Assembly (NCBI GenBank): GCA_020543525.1
Contig: JAHYIO010000003.1
Span: 2,418,001 to 2,482,000 of the forward strand
Origin: Coriolopsis trogii
Lineage: Eukaryota > Basidiomycota > Agaricomycetes > Polyporales > Polyporaceae
Direction: 5' to 3'
DNA: 64,000 nucleotides
Positions 33,216-47,906 of the stretch are shown piece after piece. The position numbers were made by a program, and so were the translations under genes. Below the pieces are notes generated by a model. It was not told where the DNA came from and made no database searches. It was given only the letters and a program-made list of their open reading frames with translations. Every line of letters begins with the position of its first letter. Position 1 is the stretch's first letter.

Positions 33216-35082
33216 TCAACGCACCCTCTTCTTGCCCTTGCGTTTGTTGGATTCACACTCTCGACAGTACCATTTGCCCTTGGGAATCCTCTTCAACCCG
33301 ATACACCCTATGTGGAACTGCGAAGGCTAGGTGAGTGCGGGAAGGTGAGGCGGGGGCGTAACAGACCACGTACCCATTCCCTTGTGCATGTGGGATTGTC
33401 GCACGCAATCATCTGAGACATCCACTGTTGAGTAATTTGACACCACGCATGGAATCAGTACACGTACCTCGCCGTATGAGACCTGATTGCAGAAGCAATA
33501 GCGCGGCTCGTCAGGATCCACCATCTCAGTTTCCACTGGTGTTACGAGGTTCTGTGCCGGGATTCTGAGCGTGAGGGGCGGCTGAGGTGGAATCTGGTTC
33601 TCTTCGTCCTCTGGCTCAGGGGTGAGCGGGATCCCTGCATGAGCTGCGGCCTCCCGAGCTCGGGCAGACTTGCGCCTCTTTCTGCCTTTGCGCCTACCCT
33701 GCGGCGGCTCGGGTTCCGGCTCAGGCTGGGGAACCTCGACAGGTTCGGTCACCTCGAGAATTTCCACCTCTTCGTCTTCTCCAGATGGCAAGGGGGGTGG
33801 GGGCTCTTGCTCCTCTGTAGGCTCGATAATCTCTGGCTCGACTGACTCTAGCTCTTGCACCTGCTCTTGCTCTTGCTCTTGCTCTTGCTCCTGTCCTTGT
33901 TCAACTTCCTCTGGCTCTTCCTCCTGACCCTCCTCCAGCGCTTGCTCTTCTTGCTTGTGCCCTTCATTCTGGGTTTCTTCGACGGGTCCGGGGCCTAGGA
34001 CAGTACCTTCTTCATGCACCTCCTCCGGTGCCGGACTGCTGGCACCTCTGTTGCGGTGAGGCTTGGGAAGGACGAGTTCGGGAAGGATGATGGAGGCAGG
34101 GTGGGTGCCGGGACGCAGTCCGAGGGATATGGAGGCCTCCTGCTCTTTGATGGCGCGGTCCAAGTCACGAATGTAGCGGTCTACCTGCGATGTTTGAAGT
34201 CAGGCGATATTGATGGGCCAACGCTGGGTACATAGTGGGGGAAGGGAACGGAGACCGAGATCGACGGACGTACGAGATCATAGACGTGCCGGGAGAGGTA
34301 GTATTTCTCGTTCGAGGCCCGCGAGATCTCCTCTGCTGACTGCGCGATGGTAATGAGCAGCTCGCGCGTCGAGTCGGAGGACTGCGTGACGGAGGCGAGA
34401 GTTCTCGCGGGCAGGGGCGTGGTGCGACTCTTCGTGGAGGAAGGACCGGGAGTTGATGTGGGAGGAGGCGAGAGAGAGCTCCCAAGGGAGACTTGACCGG
34501 TCAGGCTGGCTGCGTCGGCCGCTTCGGTGTTTCGTTGTTCTTCTACTGGAGGATGTCCCTCTGCATTCGTAGGGTTGTCCTCCTGCTTCTTGTCTGCCTC
34601 CGCTATTGCTTTACGCAGCGAGACATACTTGTGTATCGCAGGGGCAAGATTCGAGATACGCTCTAGAAAGGCTCGCAATTTATTGGCAAGTGAGATGCTG
34701 ATGAATAGACGAACCTTGTGCGTGTTGGTCCAGCTCGTTGATCAGCGTGAATGCCCGGTGGAGTGACAGCGGCAGCTGTTCAAGCACTGACGAGCACGGC
34801 GTTCTCTCAGTACGAGCAAACAGTAGGAGGACAGTCACACGACGCACCTTCATACTGCTCCTCCCTGACGGCGTCCCAGATCTCCTGCTCCTTGGCCAAC
34901 GCTTCAATGTCAGACTCCTGAGTCGGCGCTTGCTGGAGAGGATCCGGGTCGGCGGCAGCCTGCGTGTCTGTCACCGTCTCCTTGGGGCCGCGCGACGGCG
35001 AGTCCGCGACTGCGAGTTGCTCTTCGAAGAGTGGAATAGCCTCTTTCTCAACGCGCCGTCGCTTGTGTCTGCGAGTAGACAT
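33216..35082 (-). CDS. ING-family PHD-finger protein
   Basis: Chromatin reader subunit of a histone acetyltransferase or deacetylase complex (yeast relatives Yng1, Yng2, Pho23). The start (MSTRRHKRRRVEKEAIPLFE) is basic. The ING N-terminal helical domain is spread over small exons (LEQLPLSLHRAFTLINELD; LRAFLERISNLAPAIHKYVS; VDRYIRDLDRAIKEQEAS). A very acidic 200-residue linker contains an EQ run, followed by a basic patch GRRKGRKRRKSARAREAA. The C-terminal PHD finger reads [20 protein letters not shown], a short His-containing exon (FHIGCIGLKRIPKGKWYCRE) and a lysine-rich polybasic tail. All C4HC3 ligands are visible. Which of the three yeast ING paralogues it matches cannot be told here. Confidence 0.9.
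33851..33900. repeat. Hexanucleotide repeat encoding Glu-Gln run
   Basis: GCTCTT units in tandem inside the ING linker exon give (EQ)n on the minus strand. This is a coding microsatellite liable to length change. Confidence 0.8.
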
Positions 35083-35563
35083 AGCGCGAAGAGGAGAGAG
35101 GGGGCGTTGTCGCGCACGCTCCCGTGCCGCGCACTCTCAGCACGACCTTGTCGCTGTCACGAGCAGTCACCTGTGACAAAGCGTGTGCCCGTGACGCCGC
35201 GCAGTTCAGTAGCAAGCAATGCGAGGCTGAGTCCGCATTGAGAGAATATATACAAGAGACCGAAGAGGTCCGTAGGTATAGCATTACATTCTTGCACACG
35301 GCGACTTGCCGATAAGTCTACAGAGTACATATGCAGGTCGTGACTGAATACTAGAAGAAGTTCCTGACAGAGATAGATGATAGAAATCGTGACGGATGTG
35401 GTGAGTTGTACAGTCGTCGATAGCAAGACAACGTAGCGATAGCATGAGCAGAATTCTAGCGAGTTCGTGAGTGATATGAGTGGGGGTATACAGAGGGGAG
35501 GGGCTTGTCCGAGTGGGGAAAGAAGGGATGTGGCTCCATACTATGTGTATGAGCATGGTGGAC
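35083..35563. other. Intergenic: ING promoter / paralogue A 3' flank
   Basis: No gene is recognised. A TATATA run near 35247, read on the minus strand, is a possible ING promoter element. Confidence 0.4.
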
Positions 35564-37083
35564 TCATGCCCAGAGTCTTGGACAAACTCCAGTACTAGGG
35601 ACTTGGTGATGGTCAGAGCCATCATCCGGAGGTACCCAATCGGAGTCCTTGGACCTACGGCAAACGAAAGATGAGATTCGTATGAAGTAGCAGAATGACC
35701 AACATACCCTAGGGTGTATAAGCTGCACGAGTAAGCATCAGCGATGTGGTGACAGTATCACCGAGATATTTCGCACCTCTGAAAAGCCCGATGTGCGGTC
35801 TTTGCATCCTCGTAAAGCGTTCTCAAGAGTCGCTTGTCATCGTGATTGAATCCGTCGCCGAGTGGGAGATCAAAGCCGAAAGCGTCTGCCGGTGTAAGCT
35901 CCCCATGGTTGAGGAGTCGGATCTGGTGCAGAACAGTGTCCTTCCAGAGACGCCATACATGCGTCTCGTTCGGAAGCAAGTCATCCAAGACTTTGCGCAA
36001 CATCTCGTCCTGGGGGATCTCCTGCTTTTCCGGAGATGAGAGGACAAGCAAGACGAAAACTGCCATGATGGTCCTCGTCCCTAGTTTGAACTTGCGCAAG
36101 TTGGGCGTTTTGAGCACTTCCTGCATGAGAATGCGGCGCTGGATGCTCTCCCGATCCAACGAGGAGAGGTAGGAGTTGTAAATCCAGGACACTGCCAAGG
36201 ACGTGAGGAACATGAACTGGCCAAAGTTTTCGCCCTGGGGTACGAGGAGAAGCTGAGCGAGAAACTGAAAGGTGAGGAGGAAGGACGAGGAGCCGATGTT
36301 ATGGTAATCAGGCTCGCTGGCGTACTGGAGGGAGAATCGACCTCTGGTGATGGGATTGATAGCACCCTCTGGGCCCAGCAAGACAACGATGTCGCTATCA
36401 GCCTCCAAGACGCCATGACCGGGAGGTGCACCCTCTGCAGGTTGGGGATATGTGAAGGTAAAGACACCCGTACCGATCACAAAGCATGAAAGACCACTGC
36501 TGACGATGCCGAGGACGATCATGGAGAAGCACCACCAGTCTTGGAAGATGGCACAGGCGACGGAGGTGGCGATAGATGCGGATATGGGGATGAAGGCGAG
36601 GAAACCAGTCGAGTCGCGGACAAGACGGGGATTGGCTTTTACAGGTGGCTGGAAGTGCAGATGAGCGACGGTGACACATACAGGTGTGGTCTCTCGCGTT
36701 TTGTCGAGTTGGTGAAGTTTGGTGATATCCCGACACTCTTGGAGGAAGAGGTGGGCGAGATGGCCGGTCCTGCGCATGACGGTGCCCGAGTGAACGGCAC
36801 GATACTTTGGACCGGGCTTTCCGTCCAGCTCGAAGAGGACGGCAGGGTCGACGTTGATGCCAGGGTAGAGACCGTCCCAGAAGCGTGTGCGACCGAGTTG
36901 GCCATATCGCTTGGCGATCTCGTAGCTCCCTGGAGAGTTGTACCAGCCTAGCCACTTCCTGCCTTGGTAGACATGGACGGTGGCCATGGCAGATACGGCG
37001 ACATCTCCACCGAAGAACCCGGCCACGCCGGAGATGTCGAGATTGATGTCCACACCGTCGAGAGGTATGGGAGGGATAGGCAT
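35564..37083 (-). CDS. Unassigned multi-pass membrane protein, paralogue A
   Basis: First of four tandem paralogues; I do not recognise the family. It has about 470 residues. A long first exon (35777-37083) is followed by two tiny exons (ending TLGSKDSDWVPPDDG and CPRLWA), with splice phases matching paralogue B. The first ATG in frame gives MPIPPIPLDGVDINLDISGV. Hydrophobic segments lie at residues about 160-180, 184-208, 264-283, 286-306 and 336-351, and a Gly/Ala-rich hydrophobic stretch at 16-36. Family motifs: WLGWYNSPGSYEIAKRYGQ, TGHLAHLF, PITRGRFSLQY, LLVPQGENFGQFMF, LGTRTIMAVFVLLVLSS, LLPNETHVWRLWK. No catalytic signature is seen. A shared membrane topology and a soluble C-terminal helical tail are inferred. 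Confidence 0.75.
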
Positions 37084-37424
37084 GGAGGACGTGAGAAGGC
37101 GTAAGGTGAATGGACGGAGGAAGGAGGAGCAATGCGGCGGATGAGAGGGGATGAACGCGCATTGTGACTTTGAGACGAGCTGTCCGAGCACGAGTACAAG
37201 GACGAGTGTGTTTGGCAAGTGTGTTGACGGCAGTCCGATATCGGCATCAGCACCAGAACAAGCCAAGACTCCCGCGGCGTCTGCTTAGCCGTCTTTACCT
37301 TCGCGGGAACAAATCAGTCTCGACAACATTGTTCGACTCGGCGAAGTAGATTGGATGTGACTAGAATTACATGCATGCTTTGAGGTACGACACATGGACT
37401 AAACATGAGGTCCTGGGGGAGCAA
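37084..37424. other. Intergenic between paralogues A and B
   Basis: Contains the upstream region of A (minus strand) and the 3' flank of B. No gene is seen. Confidence 0.45.
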
Positions 37425-39016
37425 CTATGCCTCAGTACCTTGCACTGGCACCTCGTTCACCACAGTCATCGGTATAGAATCGCCACTGACGCTGCTTTCG
37501 TCTGTTGACAACTTGGGACGATTGGACTCCAAGGACCTAGTGAAAGCAATGAGTTTGCAAGAGATATGTAGCTCAAAATTGATACGTACCCTTCGTGTCC
37601 TTTGCTCCTTGCACTGGATTTTCGCGCCCTAGTACATTGCAACAGCCATGAGTTGTCTGGAAAATTGCGCAAGCGTAGCATTACTCACTGGCAATATACG
37701 GAATAGGCCTTCCTCGCTGCTTCCGCATCCTTGTAGAGCGTGTCTAGCATTGTATCTTCTAGGGTGGAACCCGGCTCGCGCTCAAAGGGAGGTACGTCGG
37801 GAAATTCGGAGCCCTGAGCGGCCGTGGCCTCGAGACTGCTGAGAATGACGCTCTTCCACGACCGCCATGCTGGCGTGTTGTTTGGAAGAAGATCTTCGAG
37901 CATAGCACGTATCGCCTCGGGTTCGATGGCCTTGTCTTGGAAGGCAGACAGCACGAGAAGGACGAAGACGACCATCGTCGTCCTCGTGCCCAACATGAAT
38001 CGGTACATCGGAGGCCTCTCGAGGATCTTGTCGACGAGGATATGTCGTTGCAGACTCACGCGGTCGATCGAAGAGAGGTACGAGTTGTACGCCCACGAGA
38101 CCGCGAGTGAGCACAGGAACATGACCTGCCCAAAGATGCTCCCTTGGGGCACCGCTAGCAGTTGGACGAGGAATTGGCATGTGAGGAGTACGGAGGACCA
38201 GCCAATGGCCCGTATCGAGTGGCCTTCGTATTTGAGGGTGAATCCACCTCTGGTGATAGTGGTCACCATGGATTCCGTTCCCCGAACAATGATAATCTGA
38301 CTGCTATCATCGAGAATGCCGTTCGCGGGAGGTGCCCCAACGGCAGGTTTGGAATTGATGAAGACGAGTTCCCCCCAGCCAATCGCAAGGCATGAGAGAC
38401 CGTTCGCCAGCATACCCAGGGTGATCATGCTGACCACGAGGTTGTCGTTAGCGAAACCGCATAGCAAACTTGTGGCGACGGATGCGAAGATGGGGATTAG
38501 GGAAAGAAGGGTAGTGGCCTTGAAGTCCGGCAGCCGCCCTTTGCGGAGGGGCTCTTCACGCTCGTCTGGCGTCTTCTGACAGAGCTCGGCGATGGTAACT
38601 GAGACTGGAGACGTCACCCTGGTATCTTTATTGTCCCAAGTCTGTAACGGGAGGGTCTTGCAATGCTCAGCGAACAGGTATGCGAGATGACCTGTCTTGG
38701 CCATGATTGTCCCGGAGTGGAGGCCTCGGTACCTGGGACCGATCCCGCCGTCCAGTTCGAAGAGGACGGCAGGTTCCTGGCGGACCCCAGGGTAGAGGCC
38801 AGACCAGAGACGCGAGCGGACGAGCTGCCCGAACCGCTTCGCGATCTCGTAGCTGCCAGGGGAGTTGTACCAGCCCAGCCACTTCCGCGCTTTGTAGATG
38901 TGGACAGTGGCCATCGCGGAGACGGCAACGTCGCCGCCGAAGAAACCTGCGACACCGGATATGTCAAGGTTGATATCGGAGCCGCGAAGGGGGACGTGGT
39001 CCTGTGGGATGATCAT
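37425..39016 (-). CDS. Unassigned multi-pass membrane protein, paralogue B
   Basis: About 492 residues in three exons. The first (37689-39016) starts at the first in-frame ATG, MIIPQDHVPLRGSDINLDIS. The second joins through a Gln codon to ARKSSARSKGHEG. The third ends in an acidic Ser/Thr tail (DSIPMTVVNEVPVQGTEA). It shares with A the motifs GVAGFFGGDVAVSAMATVH, WLGWYNSPGSYEIAKRFGQ, TGHLAYLFAEH, ITRGGFTLKYEG, LLAVPQGSIFGQVMFL, LGTRTTMVVFVLLVLSAF and LLPNNTPAWRSWK, and the same hydrophobic profile. It sits in the left copy of a direct segmental duplication. If the last two introns are wrong the protein ends at 37685 after VYCQ. Function unknown. Confidence 0.77.
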
Positions 39017-40230
39017 ATCGAGGAGCGCGGTGGGGTAGTAGGTCGTTCGTCGCCGTTTGGGGGGAACGCAGGGAGAGGAGGAGTGAGGAAGTGAAGGCAA
39101 CAGCAGCGATGGTGTCCGGTGTGGATGGAGAAGCAGCGACGACTGAGCCAGATGGTATTTGAGGGAAGGGGCTCGTCCATGTGGTAGAGCCTCATGTTGG
39201 TGTATATCGGCGGTGCAAGTACGAGGGCACTCCCTGCCGCTGCTGGGGCGTCCAGGGTGCCATTACCCCCTGCACGTCCAGCTCTCGCGCACCGCCTTGT
39301 TCTTCATCGATCCGGGATTCCCAACGGGCAGGCAGTGTGAGCCATGCAAGGAAGAATAAGGACGGTGAGAGCGGCGCCAGAAGCCATTTGAGTTCCTTCA
39401 TCAAGCATTACGAGCGCCGGCGCTGTCACTCCAGTCCACAATGCAGCCTGTCGCGTGCACAACACTCACCGCTACCAGCCGACTCCTTGCTTTGTCCGCC
39501 ATGCACAGACGTCCGTCAGATAGAGCCCAAGACGACGTCTACCATTGTTCAGCAAGGTGCAGCGAATGAGCCGTCCTGGTCCAGGACAGCGCCGGCGTGT
39601 TTTCGTTGTGGGTCCTCGTGAGTAGATGGGCCGCACGAACGCTCGAGAATCTCGCGTGCCTCGTCTCATGCACGGACTTTGTGAGGTGGAGCGACCTGCA
39701 ACTCGGAACATATCGCACTTCCGTACTACCTCCTTGGCAGAGAGAACCCCTGAGCGGCCGACACGAGGAGGGTGCTTCTGAGGCACGATGCAATGGGCGG
39801 CAGGGTCGATGTCCTCTCTGGAAACCACAGAAGTACTACTGTTGAGCGCGATTGTCCAAAGGTGAGAGAGTAGGACATACTGCATGCTTGCGTCATCTCC
39901 AACACCACCTCAGTACGAGCGACTTTCATTTAAACCGATTCCTCGCTGCCAATCGTATTCTGCGTTGAGCTTATCAGAAAATGTGCATGACGGGGGTATA
40001 GAAGGTGACAGGGGATAGTGTCGCGCCAGTTATTGCGAGCGATGCTGATGAATGATACGTAAATCTCTTGACCTTGGGTCCCGAACGAGTGGCAACTTTG
40101 CCGCGGCGCAAGCATGATGTAGGAGTTACCAAGGGCTACTATACATCGATGCCACCGAGCACGCGCATACTCTCTTCATGGAAGGGACGGTAAATGTTGG
40201 ACGTGCATTGGACAGGCCCGATAATATGAG
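37612..40230. repeat. Segmental duplication, left copy (contains paralogue B)
   Basis: Direct repeat of 40813-43115. Similarity covers the 3' part of the gene from its penultimate exon, the whole coding body, and non-coding upstream DNA. Upstream it is seen at CACTCCAGTCCACAATGCAG (39428 and 42474), GACGACGTCTACCATTGTTC (39531 and 42592) and ACATCGATGCCACC (40143 and 42999). The right limit is near GGAAGGGACGG (40180 and 43068). Borders were judged by eye. Confidence 0.8.
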
Positions 40231-40257
40231 GGGCCGTTTGTACAAATATTGATTTCG

Positions 40258-40291
40258 CACGCACACACCCCGCGCGCACACACACGCGACG
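40258..40291. repeat. Alternating purine-pyrimidine tract, left arm of inverted pair
   Basis: CACGCACACACC then GCGCGCACACACACGCG. The reverse complement closely resembles the tract at 40650-40707, giving an inverted repeat with about 360 bp between the arms. Confidence 0.7.
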
Positions 40292-40649
40292 AAAGTCATA
40301 CAACTTGAAGGTTTCTCCGAAGTCTGAAGAGACTTGCCTTCTAAGGCCCTCCACACTCCCTAGTGGATGTCTAGATGATCTGATGGTTTTCCGAGGGCTT
40401 GTCAGACCCCGAAAGGGGTCGCAGGAGAACAAATGCCTGCTGTGGCTGAAGCTCATGTAACGCTCAATGGGCGCCTATTCGACTTGATCTCGACTTGACC
40501 AAGTCTAGACGCCCAGCTACAGTGGGTTTGAGCACTTTCCTGCGATTTACGGCCACTCGGGAAGCTACACTCAGATATGACTCAGGAGGGCCAAAAGGTA
40601 TTTTGGGGAATATTAGTCGGGAAAACTGAGAGAAGAGGACGGAGGCAAG

Positions 40650-40707
40650 GGTGTGTGTGCGCGCAGAATGCGTGTGTGCGTGTGCGCGCAGTGCGTGCGC
40701 GCTATAA
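40650..40707. repeat. Alternating purine-pyrimidine tract, right arm of inverted pair
   Basis: GTGTGTGTGCGCGCAG followed by GTGTGTGCGTGTGCGCGC and GTGCGTGCGCGC. It has high Z-DNA potential, is inverted relative to 40258-40291, and lies about 100 bp from the left border of the right duplication copy. Confidence 0.7.
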
Positions 40708-40799
40708 TCAATAAAGGTACAAAACGTCCATCATAGTGTATTAAACTAACTCGCGCAGACTCTGGCCATCTCGGTAGTGGGAAGAGGGTGTTGCGCTAA

Positions 40800-42215
40800 T
40801 CACAACGCATCCCCACTGGATTTCCGCGCCCTACATTGCAACAGCCATGAGTCGTCTGGAAGATTGCGCGAGCGCAGCAGTAGTACTCACTGGCAATATG
40901 CGGAATAGGCTTTCCTCGCAGCTTCTGCATCCTTGTACAACACATCCAGCAACATGGCATCCTCTGGGGTTGAACCAGGCTCGCGCTCAAAGGGAGGCAC
41001 GTCGGGAAATTCGGAGCCCTGAGCGGCCGTGGCCTCGAGGCCTCTAAGAATGACGCTCTTCCACGACTGCCATGTTGGCGTGTCGGGTGGAAGCAGGTCA
41101 TTGAGAATAGCACGTATCACCTCGGGCTCGATGACCTTGTCTTGGAAGGCAGACAGCACGAGAAGGACGAAGACGACCGCTGTCGTCCTCGTGCCCAAGA
41201 TGAATCGGTACATCGGGGGCTTCTTGAGGATCCTGTCGACAAGAATATGCTGTTGTAGGCTGGTACCATTGATCGGGGAGGCGTATAATAGGCACCAACT
41301 ACACCCCCATGAGATTGCAAGTGAGCACAAGAACATGATCTGTCCAAAGACACTCCCTTGGGGCACCGCTAGCAGTTGGACAAGGAATTGGCATGCGAGA
41401 AACATGCAGGACCAGCCAATAGCCCGAATCGAGCGACCATCGTATCTGAGGGTGAATCCGCCTCTGGTGATCGTGTTCACCATGGATTCCGTTCCCCGAA
41501 CAATGACAATCTGACTGCTATCGTCGAGAATGCCGTTCGCGGGAGGTGCCCCCGAGGCAGGTTGGGGATGGGTGAAGATAAGTTCTCCCCAGCCAATTGC
41601 GAGGCACGAGAGACCGTTCGCCAACATACCCAAGGCAATCATGCTGGCCACGAGGTTATCGCCAGCAAATGTGCATGTTAAAGCCGTGGCGACTGATGAC
41701 AGGATGGGGATGAGGGAGAGAAGGGTAGTAACCTTGAAGTCCGGCAGCCGCCCTTCGCGGAGCTCTTCAAACCAAAGTGGGACCTCTTGACGGAGCTCGG
41801 CGATGGTGACTGAGACTGGAGACGTCACCCTGGTATCTTCATCATCCCAAGTTTCTAACGGGAGGGTCTTGCAGTGCTCAGCAAACAGGTACGCCATATG
41901 ACCTGTCTTGGCCATGATGGTCTCAGAGTGGAGGCCTCGGTACCTGGGACCGATCCCGCCATCGAGTTCGAAAAGAGAGGCAAAATTAGGCGCATGGGGG
42001 GGCCCAGGGAAGAGGCTGGAGTGCTGGCCGAAGCGCTTCGCAATCTCGTAACTCCCAGGGGAGTTGTACCAGCCCAGCCACCTCCGTGCTTTGTAGATGT
42101 GCATAGTGGCCATTGCGGAGACAGCAACGTCGCCGCCAAGAAAACCTGCAACGCCGGATATGTCGAGGTTGATATGGGAATTGTGAAGGGGGATGCGATC
42201 GTCAGGGATGACCAT
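40800..42215 (-). CDS. Unassigned multi-pass membrane protein, paralogue C (3'-truncated duplicate)
   Basis: About 451 residues. The first in-frame ATG gives MVIPDDRIPLHNSHINLDIS, closely matching B throughout (WLGWYNSPGSYEIAKRFGQ, TGHMAYLFAEHCKTLP, ITRGGFTLRYDG, LLAVPQGSVFGQIMFLCSLA, LGTRTTAVVFVLLVLSAF). The intron after VYC-Gln has the same position as in B, but the next exon reads ARKSSGDAL and stops at once because the duplication ends there; the acidic terminal exon of A and B is missing. Two patches differ sharply from B: after FGQ (residues about 60-80, shortened) and SWGCSWCLLYASPING, where B has SWAYNSYLSSIDR. The frame is open, so it may be functional or drifting. Confidence 0.75.
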
Positions 42216-43115
42216 ATTCAAGAGCAGCGTGACGGTGGGGTGGCGAAGTTTCGTCGCGTAGGAAGATATGAAGAGAGGACGTGCGAAAGGAGGTAGTGAA
42301 GGCGGCGGCGCGAAAGCGTTGGCAATGGATGTAGGCAGCGATGGCTCACGGAGGAGGGGATTTGAAGGAGACTGTCCGCCCGGACGAGTCTCAAGTTGCT
42401 GTAGATCGGCAATGCAAGTCAATAGCGCCCCAGCGCGTGCAGAGAGCCCTTCAACGTGAGCGCGCCGCTGTCACTCCAGTCCACAATGCAGTCTGTCGCG
42501 CACGACGTTCCCCGCTACCAGCCGCTGCTAATCGATGTCTTCCTTTGTCCGCATTACACAGACGTCCCACTGTCTGCCAGATAGAGGTCAAGACGACGTC
42601 TACCATTGTTCCGCGAGGAGCCGTCCCTGGCAGAAAGAACCCCTGAGCAGCTGACACGAGGAGGGTGTAAGGCACGATGCAATGGGCGGCAGTGTCGATA
42701 TCCTTTCTCGAATCCGCAGAAGTATTGAGCGCGATTATGCGACTGTGCAGGAGAATGCTGGGACACATCGCACTTGCGTCAACTTCAATACGGCCTGAGT
42801 ACGAGCGACGTACGTTGTCTTCGAGCCAACAGCCGCGATACGCTGCCAGTCAGCGTGCATTGAGCTCACTAGCAAAAGTGCATGTATGATAGTAGGCGGT
42901 GTCGTGCGAGTTAATACAGCGATAATCTCGGCATCGGGCCCCGACCGAGCAGTGCGCCGCAATCCTCACTCTCCCGGGAGTTTCTAAGGATTAGTTAACA
43001 TCGATGCCACCACGAGTATGCGAAGGCCCACCCGTGACCTCACATGCGGATAAGCTCATCGCATCATGGAAGGGACGGCGAACGTTGGACGTACCTTGGG
43101 CGTGCCCCATGAGGC
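40813..43115. repeat. Segmental duplication, right copy (contains paralogue C)
   Basis: Direct repeat of 37612-40230, shorter by about 300 bp because of internal deletions in the upstream non-coding part. The left border is at CACTGGATTTCCGCGCCCTA, next to unrelated sequence that supplies the stop codon of paralogue C. Confidence 0.8.
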
Positions 43116-43897
43116 CTACTATAGGGAGGCCTGAGGCAGAGACGGTGCCGGGATGGAATAGGGGTTTACTCGCCGGGAGGCAGACCTTGTCTCCAAACTA
43201 TATGTCGAGCAGCCTCGTACCATCAGATCTGGCAGTACTGGGTACTTTCGTGGATAGACGCGTGAGATCGTCGCATCTGAGCATGTACTGCAAGCAAGTA
43301 CATAACACAGCATACGTGTGATGAGAACAAAGTGCGGGGAGTGTTCGAACGAGAAGATAGAGAGCAATATGGATCCGCGCAGCGAGTGTACGATTGCAAG
43401 ACGAAAGAAGACGACACACGGGCGCTACGCACGCCACTGTCGGATATCGACTTTCGGTGCGTAGCTGACCCCACTTCCCTCAGCCTGGTTTCATTGGCAA
43501 GCCTAAATTACCCCATTCACATGATTACCATATAGAGGACAAGATAGTACAAGGGTATGATGCAGCAGTAGCTTACTGCGCACAACAGCGACGGGTCCAG
43601 CGCACAGTAAATAATCGGATACATCAGAGTCAGGACGTAGCACTACAACTCGAGCCATATTGACAACCATGGGGATCTCTCATACACTCACGTTCAAAAG
43701 CAAGGTCACTGTCTAGAGATGAGTCAAAAAGAGATAGCACGATCTGAGACACAAGTCACACGTCCATGCACATGTTCCGATTGACAGTCTTTCCAGTCGA
43801 CGAGAAGCTCCTTTGACGTTTTCTATATATGCTGGTGAGACGGCGTAGCATAGAGGACGGTATAGTGCAGAACGAACTATATGTGTTCGCCAATTGA
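42216..43897. other. Intergenic between paralogues C and D
   Basis: Up to about 43115 this is duplicated upstream DNA. The rest, 43115-43897, is unique, AT-richer and without recognisable genes. A 3' exon of D could lie near 43756-43830 but is not supported by comparison with A or B. Confidence 0.5.
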
Positions 43898-45121
43898 TCA
43901 GTACTTCGCAGTAGCAAATTGGGCGAAGCCTGCGACTGCAGCCTGCGCATCCCCAAAGAGTGTCTTGAGCAGTTTGCTTTCATCGGCGTTGAAACCGCTG
44001 GTCTGGACACCGACAAAGTCCGGTGTCTCATCTCGCAATTTCTGGGCAACGGTTTGCCTCCAGAAGCGCCACACGGGTGTGTTGTTGGGAAGGAGAAGTG
44101 CGAGTTGTTCTTCCACGTTCGTCGGCTTCAACATCTGCATGAGGAAGACTGCGGCCGTGGTACGAGTACCCAGACTATAGCGCTCCATCGTGGGGGCTTT
44201 GAGCAGGTCCTCCAAAACGAGGCGCTTCCACGCGATCTCCTCTTGACGAGCAACATATGCGTTGTAAACCCATGCGACCACCATAGTCAGGAGGAAAATA
44301 CACCGGCCGATGAACGTTCCTTGAGGAACAAGGAGGAGCTGTATGAGACATTGCGCGCTGAGGAATTGGCCACAAGACTGCGTCCAAGTAAGGGTCGGCT
44401 TGTTCTTGTAGCGGAGAGTAAAGCGTCCACGCGTCACGGACGCAACAGCACCCTCTGAACCCTTGAGGACAATGATTTCGTTCCCCGCTTCCAGGTATCC
44501 ATCACCTGCAGGAACCCCGGGTGTAGTAAGAGGTCGAGTGAACGTGAGGTCGCCCTGTCGGAGAGCAACAGAAGACACGCCGCCAGCCACCATACCGAGG
44601 ATGATCATACTGAATGTGGTCCAGTCTCCGATGACACCGCACGCAGCGGCTCCGGCGGCGCTCGCGGCGATGGGTATGATGACAGGAGCATTCACTCTAG
44701 GAGCAGGGTGGACTTCGCTGTCGGGGGCATCCGGGAGCCGAACGACGGTGATAGAGGAGGGAGTGGTAGAGCGTCCTGCAATCGTTTTGATCGCCATTTG
44801 CCTGGAATGTTCAAGGAGGATATTGGCAAGAGGCCCTGTCGTCGGGATGATCGAGCCAGAGAAAGCACCAATATACTTTGGGCCGCTCCTGAGTGGGAGG
44901 CTGGAAGCGAGAGCAGCAGGGTCGACGCTGGCATGTGGACCATCGAATACATCGGACTTGCTCAACGCGACAAGCGCTTTCCCTGCACCGTAGCTTCCTG
45001 GGGAGTTATAGAGAGCGGGCAACGACTTGCGTCCCAAGGAGTACGACGTGGATGTGGCACTGAGGAGTTCCTCACTGCCGACAAAGCCTAGTAGCGAGCT
45101 TGTCAAAAGCGTGCTAGCCAT
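43898..45121 (-). CDS. Unassigned multi-pass membrane protein, paralogue D (most diverged)
   Basis: About 407 residues in a single open exon from the first in-frame ATG, MASTLLTSSLLGFVGSEELL. It keeps the family core: LYNSPGSYGAGKALVALSK, the GSIIPTTGPLANILLEHSRQ equivalent of the TGHLA motif, two hydrophobic segments (VIIPIAASAAGAAACGVIGD and FSMIILGMVAGGVSSVALRQ), IIVLKGSEGAVASVTRGRFT, LLLVPQGTFIGRCIFLLTMV, LGTRTTAAVFLMQML and LLPNNTPVWRFWRQTV. It lacks the DINLDISGVAGFFGGD block of A-C at the N-terminus and the additional 3' exons. It lies outside the B/C duplication and so is an older paralogue. Function unknown. Confidence 0.75.
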   Translation of the reverse strand: MASTLLTSSLLGFVGSEELLSATSTSYSLGRKSLPALYNSPGSYGAGKALVALSKSDVFDGPHASVDPAALASSLPLRSGPKYIGAFSGSIIPTTGPLANILLEHSRQMAIKTIAGRSTTPSSITVVRLPDAPDSEVHPAPRVNAPVIIPIAASAAGAAACGVIGDWTTFSMIILGMVAGGVSSVALRQGDLTFTRPLTTPGVPAGDGYLEAGNEIIVLKGSEGAVASVTRGRFTLRYKNKPTLTWTQSCGQFLSAQCLIQLLLVPQGTFIGRCIFLLTMVVAWVYNAYVARQEEIAWKRLVLEDLLKAPTMERYSLGTRTTAAVFLMQMLKPTNVEEQLALLLPNNTPVWRFWRQTVAQKLRDETPDFVGVQTSGFNADESKLLKTLFGDAQAAVAGFAQFATAKY

Positions 45122-46698
45122 GAGGTTTGCTGCGGCTGATGCAGGGGGTAATAAAGGCAAGGACAGAGGTAGACGGGTGCAGACAAGGGTCGCGAGATGC
45201 TGAAGTGAACAATATGTAACAAACTATTAGATTTGACGGTGGGCGAAGAGAGATGGCTGCGCCTTACCGCAGGCGGTATCCTTGTCAGTGCAGGGAGTGA
45301 GGGGAGAGGTGTGGGAACACGAGAGTGGCGGTGGCAGGAGGGAAGACTGTAAGTTGGTTGGTGGAGGAGCAGGGAGTCTTATACATGGTCCAAACCGATT
45401 GGGTTCATTGTGTATGAAGGGCTGTGCATGAGGGAAGCAGCTGACAGGCTGTCGTCCACCCAGCGCTGCACGGCCCATACATCCTGGGAATCGGAATGCA
45501 CGAAGCACAAAACGTTCCATTTGCGTTCGGTTCTCTCCACACACCTTATCCGTACAGCCCCCGCGAGCGGTTTGTCCTGTTGTCATTCAAGCACGTACGC
45601 GGCTGAGTTCTACCAGGACAATTGTGTCAATAGCCCAATAGTGTCAGAAGCGATGCAGAGACATACGGTCACAGCACCGGCACTCACACAACTGATCACC
45701 CGCGGCACGAAAGCCGTGCATGCGTGTTCGGAAAGACTCATAAAAGGCTGTCCTCTTCGTTGCCTGTTCCTTATATCCTCAACCCCCTGCCTGTCATATA
45801 TCTTCCACTACTTCCCTGATTCAGATACATCCATCCGGATTCGCAACCGCCTCCCGCCACAAATGCATCGCTTGGGAGCAGCGCTACCAGCCGTATCGCA
45901 GGCCACGGACTTCGATGCGGAGCACCAGCAGCATGAACCTTGTAGGCCGCGGTCCCGATATCGAACTGCGGCTTCTCCGCCCTAGACTAGCCCTCGAGCC
46001 GTCTGCCATCGCGATATGCTGCTACACGTCCGCGACGCGAAAGTGCTGGTGGATCCCCCAAGCAAATGGGGAAGGTATGAACCACAGTCATAATGTCCCA
46101 TAGATTCGCTTCGCCTCGCATTTCTCCTGCAACATTTGCGTAATCCGGTCTCGCGAACGGGAGCACCGCGACCCCGCTTGCAGAGGTGTATCTGTGTTCC
46201 TCCATGCAAGCGACCTCAGCGCCGGATTCTGCAGGGATCCCCTTCTGTTCGTCCGCTGCGCCTCCTTCTCTACACTGGGGACGGAGGCAGGAGAGCTGTC
46301 ACAGTCGATCAACTGAGGAGCGGGCTAGCGGGGAGGGATGGAAGGGGGTTAAGAGAGTAACCAGTCGTCCCCTGGGAGACTGCTTATGTCGACTGATTCG
46401 GTGAGCCATATGCGACAGATGAGGACAGGACGCACCAGGGTCACTCTGCATTGCGACTATGTAATGAACCTTGGTACAGCTGTTTGAAATTTTGAAACCA
46501 ACTCGTTCACGACGATCAGGAGTGCCTTGTTGTTTAAGAGGGTCTGAGTCTATATGTATATAGTATCCGACGGGAGATACACTGAGGGATGTGTCAGCAG
46601 ATGCTAAGCAAGATCTCTACTTCCATAGTCCTGAACTGAATACCACAAAACTATGCATACAAGACGTATATTCATACAAATTGGCGCGTACCGATACT
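45122..46698. other. Intergenic between paralogue D and YSA1
   Basis: About 1.6 kb with no supported gene. TATA-like CATAAAAGG occurs near 45740 on the plus strand, followed by small open frames (for example 45915-46103) with no recognisable product. Otherwise it should be the promoter of D and the 3' flank of YSA1. Confidence 0.45.
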
Positions 46699-47906
46699 TC
46701 ACGCTTGCGTTTGACGGAGCTTCTCTGCAAGCTCGAAACCTGAGGCTAGATGACTGAGACGTGCATCAATCACGAAACCCTTAGAAGACATATGAGCATT
46801 GAGTGGTGTGTGGGATAGACGACAAACCTTCTTCTCATACTCTGCAGCGTTTTGTCGGTCAGAACGACGGGTATGATGGCTATTGTGGAGTACTCACCTT
46901 TGAACTCGGCGCTCAACTTGGACAGCTCTACAATACGTGCCGTGATGAACTCTCCGGGGTCGAGCTTTTGAGTAGGCATCTCCAGTTTCTCAGGGAAGGG
47001 GACGTCAACGGTAACCAGTTTCATGTTGGCGTTCGTCATCCCTACAATGGGTCAGGAGCTTGTGTAGCGATAGATGGGGGAGCAAGCGAACCTGGATCGC
47101 ATACTAGGAGAGGCGATGTCTGGATGACACCCCTCGCCTTGAAGCCAGTCTCCTCCTCCAACTCACGAATGGCGGTGTCTTCTGCAGATTCGCCCTCACT
47201 GATGAGGCCTGTGAGACGCGGAGATGAATGGCACGGTGACGGGCGAAACTGCCGGATGGCCACACTGACCGGCAGGAAGCTCTGCACAAGTGCAAAGTCT
47301 ATAAGATGGCATTGACGACAGGGAGATAAGACGAACCAACAACGTAACGGTCGACGGGAGGCCGGAACTGCTCGATGATGATTGTGGACGGAGGAAAAGC
47401 ACCTGATTCTGAACGGAGCAGGGCGAGAATGGCCACGGCTATATGTGGCGTGCATCAATGAAGTTGTCGCCGAAACACAGACATGGCGGAACTTTACCGT
47501 CTATGCCGCCTGAAGAGCGCGTCGGACGTTCTGCGAACTCCCATAGTCGCTAGAGGATGTACGTCATACACATGGTCGGTGGCGACTTGATGAATTGGAA
47601 GAGGGCTGCTGAACGCACCTCTTTTCCAGTGGGATCACGGTAAGTGCACTTTTTGAGCTTGACCCATCTGGAACGTGAAAACACGGAGGTCCGGTTAGGA
47701 CAGGGAGAGTGGTCTGGAAATCAGCCGGAAGCTCACTTGGCCTCGGCGGTGTCGAGATCCTGGACTGCGACGACCTTGGATTCCTGCATGTTGGACGCGA
47801 ACGAGCTGAGATAGAGCGAGCGTCGGAGAAGAGGTGCACGGCTGAAGGAGGGGATAGAGGAGAGGCGGAGAGGGGACGCTGCGGTAGGGAGGAACTTGGA
47901 GGGCAT
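46699..47906 (-). CDS. YSA1: Nudix hydrolase, ADP-ribose pyrophosphatase (Ysa1-type)
   Basis: Hydrolyses ADP-ribose and related ADP-sugars to AMP and ribose 5-phosphate. The Nudix box is complete across an intron: GLISEGESAEDTAIRELEEE then TGF, fitting G-x5-E-x7-REUxEExGU. It is preceded by STIIIEQFRPPVDRYVVELP, characteristic of the ADP-ribose pyrophosphatase subgroup. The C-terminal part (KLVTVDVPFPEKLEMPTQKL, then GFVIDARLSHLASGFELAEK) forms the swapped lid. About six introns are visible. The start at 47906 (MPSKFLPTAASPLRLSSIPS) gives a basic Ser-rich N-terminus that could target mitochondria; an internal Met at 47789 (MQESKVVAVQ) would give a cytosolic form. Head-to-head with MDH, 164 bp apart. 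Confidence 0.88.

Follow-up and report, generated by a model that had tools for sequence, protein, structure and literature searches.

What are the four intact single-exon reading frames that lie side by side on the minus strand between 35.7 and 45.2 kb of the window (the whole 64,000-nucleotide stretch of Coriolopsis trogii DNA analysed here), how did they come to be neighbours, and what might their products do? The first-pass annotation had described four tandem genes of one family with a common set of motifs, and closer analysis bears out both points. The reading frames, in window coordinates, are as follows:

35758–37083, minus strand: copy A, an intronless open reading frame of 441 amino acids, a predicted four-transmembrane (four-TM) member of the A-type group
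37685–39016, minus strand: copy B, an intronless open reading frame of 443 amino acids, B-type
40887–42215, minus strand: copy C, an intronless open reading frame of 442 amino acids, a tandem duplicate of B
43898–45121, minus strand: copy D, an intronless open reading frame of 407 amino acids, of the D-type group

Relative to B, amino-acid identity is 54% for A, 80% for C and 35% for D, and a genome search with B as query returned E-values of 8.9e-138 (A), 1.4e-228 (C) and 3.0e-63 (D), so that the likeness within the array is not a matter of chance. All four belong, as paralogs, to a single integral-membrane-protein family, known so far from Agaricomycetes. Coordinates proposed earlier were correct for all four start codons (37083, 39016, 42215 and 45121) and for the downstream end of D; those of A, B and C had been set at 35564, 37425 and 40800, and the real stops lie at 35758, 37685 and 40887. 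Among the shared motifs, TG[HP][LM]A, TRG[RG]F, VPQG, LGTRT and W..W each occur in all four window copies, as does YNSPGSY, with small exceptions elsewhere: the longer YNSPGSYE is found in 3/4 (its final residue is G in D), and the LLPN-type motif takes the form LLPNNT in B and D, LLPNET in A and LLPPDT in C.

The surroundings of the array look like mostly housekeeping genes, judging from the Pfam matches obtained for 14 of 20 neighbouring ORF pieces tested. These comprise an AAA ATPase, HATPase_c, a DEAD helicase (which we take to be RecQ-like) and YCII on the low-coordinate flank, and, on the other, NUDIX, lactate/malate dehydrogenase, a helicase C-terminal domain, galactose-1-phosphate uridyl transferase, SDA1 (2 pieces), HA2_N, Saf4/Yju2 (2 pieces) and phosphoglycerate kinase. 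Minus-strand ORF pieces at 33327–34741 include a repetitive Glu/Gln-rich stretch and begin with what is presumably an ING-like PHD-finger (YCFCNQVSYGE); two of these pieces were tested and gave no Pfam match. No RNA family reached the Rfam gathering score in 34000–47000.

Searches with B, D and F agree that the 38.8-Mb assembly holds at least six members of the family, all of them open frames; a seventh place (E 0.165) was disregarded. The two members outside the array are:

contig C1, 4359353–4360759: copy E, an open frame with 60% identity to B
contig C33, 2739513–2740667: copy F, an open frame with 47% identity to B

Relationships were read from two trees, one built with care from 47 proteins and one built quickly from 102. 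In the 47-protein tree a long stem (0.57) leads to a group (100/100) consisting of B, C and E, and F groups with Amylocystis and Sparassis; in the 102-protein tree F joins a Suillus group whose branch is very long (1.29). The D-type group is supported at 100/100, the A-type at 84/94 and the B-type at 86/91 with Epithele or 99/91 without it, and a further group (100/99) unites second copies of Trametes and Cubamyces. Because the A-, B- and D-type groups each include proteins of the same five genera (Lentinus, Ganoderma, Dichomitus, Fomes and Daedaleopsis), the common ancestor of the sampled polypore genera probably already had all three types. The proposal that the family is expanding by local duplication thus applies to B and C, the A-, B- and D-types being older groups common to several polypore genera, and the array as a whole is mostly not a recent local expansion.

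Computation further shows that these old gene types have mostly been kept linked. In 22 of 25 named assemblies (two of which are from Dichomitus squalens) a D-type gene and a non-D member lie on contigs of equal length, which was taken to mean one and the same contig; on megabase contigs this does not show adjacency. As for the remaining three, the members of T. cinnabarina are on different contigs, T. cubensis has no listed second member, and for G. boninense a contig is not listed. A D-type gene and a non-D member carry consecutive locus tags in two assemblies (GSI_13452/13453 and ACG7TL_002559/002560), and tags two apart in a third (V8D89_010766/010768).

Within the array only B and C are a young tandem duplicate, and the duplicated units, spanning 2.6 and 2.3 kb, consist of the genes together with pieces of upstream DNA:

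37612–40222, minus strand: duplication unit with B and DNA upstream of it, matched piecemeal rather than end to end (37612–39220, 39412–39560, 39731–39923 and a weak 47-bp piece at 40176–40222)
40814–43110, minus strand: duplication unit with C and DNA upstream of it, matched piecemeal rather than end to end (pieces 40814–42419, 42458–42621, 42624–42809 and the weak 47-bp piece at 43064–43110)

Between the two units, 3′ of copy C, lies a CA/GC-rich low-complexity stretch (40613–40720). Purifying selection between B and C is shown by computation, with dS 0.39, dN/dS 0.305 and a ratio below 1 in all ten 40-codon windows (400 of 436 codons; highest 0.86). Copy C has evolved faster than B: taking E as outgroup, 31 residues are unique to C and 11 to B (χ2 9.5), and taking A, 31 and 8 (χ2 13.6). 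This rate also fits relaxed constraint, C departing from the family at 10 of the 80 conserved columns defined below. Synonymous divergence is uneven (dS 1.39 in codons 281–320 and 0.11–0.15 in 321–400); gene conversion between the two was rejected, the clustering of synonymous differences lying within that of shuffles (longest run 22, P 0.71). At 41255–41311, the end of TM4, copy C carries a different, longer stretch where B reads YNSYLSSIDR, and it lacks six residues after position 64.

The first-pass annotation could match the proteins to no known family and called for a profile search and for Foldseek on predicted structures; in profile searches against Pfam, NCBIfam, PADLOC and PDB sequences, and in Foldseek and viral-fold searches of the models against the PDB and viral libraries, no match was accepted. 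Nothing was accepted from Pfam for the four copies (D gave one sub-threshold match to Mating_C, E 0.1), and NCBIfam and PADLOC returned no match for them. Across 73 members at E ≤ 10, in a scan whose HMMER filters remove most matches with E above 0.1, 15 Pfam families were listed, none in more than 3/73 and none accepted; the best, DUF6787 (E 0.0032, 2/73 members), was taken as chance. Against PDB sequence profiles the first family profile reached at best E 0.8 (CLIP-associating protein 2), with nothing accepted, and the two other profiles 0.53 (122-row alignment) and 0.25 (73-member alignment), to the L11 chains 9g6k_LM and 9i05_Af. This weak local likeness to the uL11 N-domain, over a helix-strand stretch (E 0.25–0.54), was rejected as chance, hhalign giving a probability of ~1% for the 122-row and 73-member alignments against 81 uL11 sequences. 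Foldseek of the two structure models against the PDB and the viral fold search yielded no accepted match, despite the confidence of the models. Searches of open-access literature by topic, locus tags and motif strings found no description of the family. We therefore class it among undescribed families of a kind already known (unannotated Agaricomycete membrane families), with a possible new fold.

Protein searches, each scoring ~8,000 candidates, gave 452 (E ≤ 1), 48 (E ≤ 1) and 591 (E ≤ 10) matches, of which the best 120, all 48 and the best 120, respectively, are listed, amounting to 202 distinct proteins. Of these, 109 are species-named, and all 109 are Agaricomycetes by name; the earlier view of the family as lineage-specific is supported among the species-named matches listed, to which this count is confined, any lower-scoring ones (for example from other Agaricales or Ascomycota) lying outside it. 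The species-named relatives listed are mostly Polyporales and Boletales, and Crucibulum is the only Agaricales genus among the matches listed, with most order placements presumptive and those of three species looked up. Prokaryote genomes gave 3 pattern matches and viral contigs 55, none confirmed as relatives. Visible record names among the matches listed are “hypothetical” or “uncharacterized”, with one exception. The D-type member of Ganoderma boninense (UniRef A0A5K1K321) is labelled alcohol oxidase in the public record, probably wrongly, as it has no listed Pfam domain.

Among published families the closest in kind is Snowball (SNB1), from the DUF6533 family of Agaricomycetes, which is reported to be required for fruiting-body patterning and predicted to have seven TM helices with the N-terminus outside, and which carries the DUF6533 domain (PMC10949477). 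Both are conserved, unannotated multi-pass proteins of mushroom-forming fungi with few copies per genome, whereas the array family has four TM-like helices and both ends predicted on one side. DUF6533 is absent from the 15 Pfam families listed for the 73 members and, given also the different number of TM helices, the array family is not a Snowball member. Many genes conserved in mushroom-forming fungi are without a name, a domain or a solved relative, and this family is another such.

Structure models of B and D are confident (pLDDT 91–92, pTM 0.90/0.86) and agree in the order of their elements, predicting four TM helices in two hairpins and a large cytosolic part of ~340 residues; the hairpins of A and C are placed by alignment and hydropathy. 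Those of B, with window positions obtained from residue numbers by arithmetic, are:

38378–38524, minus strand: hairpin 1 (TM1–TM2), residues 165–213, predicted from hydropathy, secondary structure and charges
38069–38224, minus strand: hairpin 2 (TM3–TM4), residues 265–316, predicted, containing Gln 281, 285, 291 and 297

The “about five hydrophobic segments” counted earlier accordingly reduce to four TM-like stretches, the fifth being a short stretch only (residues 345–358 of B). In the B model the turns comprise 3 residues (189–191) in hairpin 1 and 2 residues in hairpin 2, and they are conserved to an intermediate degree (means 0.55 and 0.71). Basic residues (K+R) average 1.25, 1.10, 2.75 and 2.94 per sequence at the four helix ends that face away from the turns, compared with 0.23 and 0.08 at the turns themselves; mean D+E at those four ends (1.48, 0.89, 1.16 and 3.01) balances the basic residues at most of them, so the predicted orientation rests on the turns being without basic residues. 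Both chain ends are predicted to share the side where these basic residues lie, taken as cytosolic.

We counted columns that are the same in at least 90% of the rows of a 122-row family alignment. The 80 such columns include 18 Gly, 10 Pro, 4 Gln and one Cys, with no His or Lys, and their composition makes Cys/His chemistry or a metal site appear unlikely, the pattern pointing to a structural or ligand-holding role instead. All four conserved Gln fall within TM3–TM4 (B positions 281, 285, 291 and 297), three of them (Q281, Q285 and Q297) belonging with S179 and C186 to the near-invariant polar residues of the membrane spans; a near-invariant Asp stands at the first turn, and inside the helices the conserved columns of this alignment include no charged residue. 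The conserved charged residues are R133, D232, E248, R256, R345 and D430. Departures from the 80 columns number 2 in A, 7 in B, 10 in C and 4 in D (median of the 122 rows, 2). D has Arg in place of the fourth conserved Gln, and B and C are without the near-invariant W192 and D232, which suggests, at the level of sequence, that these two have drifted in function. With W192 and D232 lost from B/C, and with B, C and E on a long stem, the array copies need not share one function.

We put at roughly 40% the probability that the family encodes a membrane-anchored cytosolic sensor or scaffold with four TM helices in two hairpins, probably oligomeric through the TM3–TM4 Gln. Each chain would cross the fungal plasma membrane or an endomembrane four times as two tight hairpins (~165–213 and ~265–316 in B), leaving the N-terminal ~160 residues, a linker of ~50 residues and the C-terminal ~125 residues on one side, taken as cytosolic, where these segments would carry small β-strands and helices. 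Packing of helices through the near-invariant Gln of TM3–TM4 would probably yield an oligomer, in which products of the linked A-, B- and D-type genes might be combined. Points in favour of a sensor or scaffold are the four copies in the array and two elsewhere, the agreeing models, the K+R pattern, the Gln residues, the linkage and the dN/dS.

The wealth of Gln in TM3–TM4 would suit a polar pore no less than helix packing, and the chains might instead form four-TM oligomers of a new type of channel or transporter, with the Gln lining a pore whose gate would be the cytosolic part. Many oligomeric channels are built from four-TM subunits with their ends in the cytosol; channels such as bestrophin combine four TM helices, cytosolic N- and C-termini and a cytosolic domain, as is predicted here, and the near-invariant polar span residues and the Asp at the first turn would suit such a role. 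We nonetheless judge it somewhat unlikely: the conserved columns inside the helices are free of charge, the two hairpins show no internal repeat by hhalign, and neither Pfam, the PDB sequence search nor Foldseek against the PDB gave a match. The bestrophin profile is absent from the 15 Pfam families listed for the 73 members; the bestrophin fold does not appear among the Foldseek and viral-fold matches listed, a listing that leaves room for it. A bolder version, in which the linked A-, B- and D-types are subunits of one hetero-oligomeric complex, specific to mushroom-forming fungi, linked since before the sampled polypore genera split and representing a new class of channel or sensor with a fold unseen in solved structures, is doubtful. 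Should the fold prove new and the linked paralogs indeed assemble into one complex, fungal membrane biology would gain a further class. Two confident models, the gene groups, the linkage and the near-invariant residues make it amenable to knock-out, localisation and cryo-EM.

It is quite unlikely that the family is a membrane-bound enzyme or lipid binder whose conserved cytosolic loops (NSPGSY, GDG, TRGRF, LGTRT and LPN-T-W-W) make up a site next to the membrane. In its favour stand the many Gly and Pro among the conserved columns and the six conserved charged residues, which could form an active site; against it, no His or Lys and a single Cys are conserved, and no enzyme family was accepted. 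Improbable, too, is a membrane-shaping role. Reticulon and REEP proteins have two hydrophobic hairpins with a cytosolic loop between them and both ends cytosolic, and the same two-hairpin plan, with a linker of ~50 residues and both ends on one side, is predicted for the array family (its orientation being a prediction only), so that the hairpins and loop might wedge and curve the ER. The array hairpins, however, could at ~49–52 residues span the membrane fully; three chain segments are predicted to build a large, ordered cytosolic part; and the reticulon profile is absent from the 15 Pfam families listed for the 73 members. Surface or self/non-self recognition with selected copy diversity, proposed in the first-pass annotation and favoured by several diverged copies lying adjacent and by the faster evolution of C than of B, is very improbable, failing mainly because almost nothing is predicted outside (the two short turns, in one prediction) and no B–C window has dN/dS above 1 (one pair), with the types also kept in several genera. 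In three relatives, from Suillus and a metagenome, a long stretch is inserted between the strand-rich linker and TM3.
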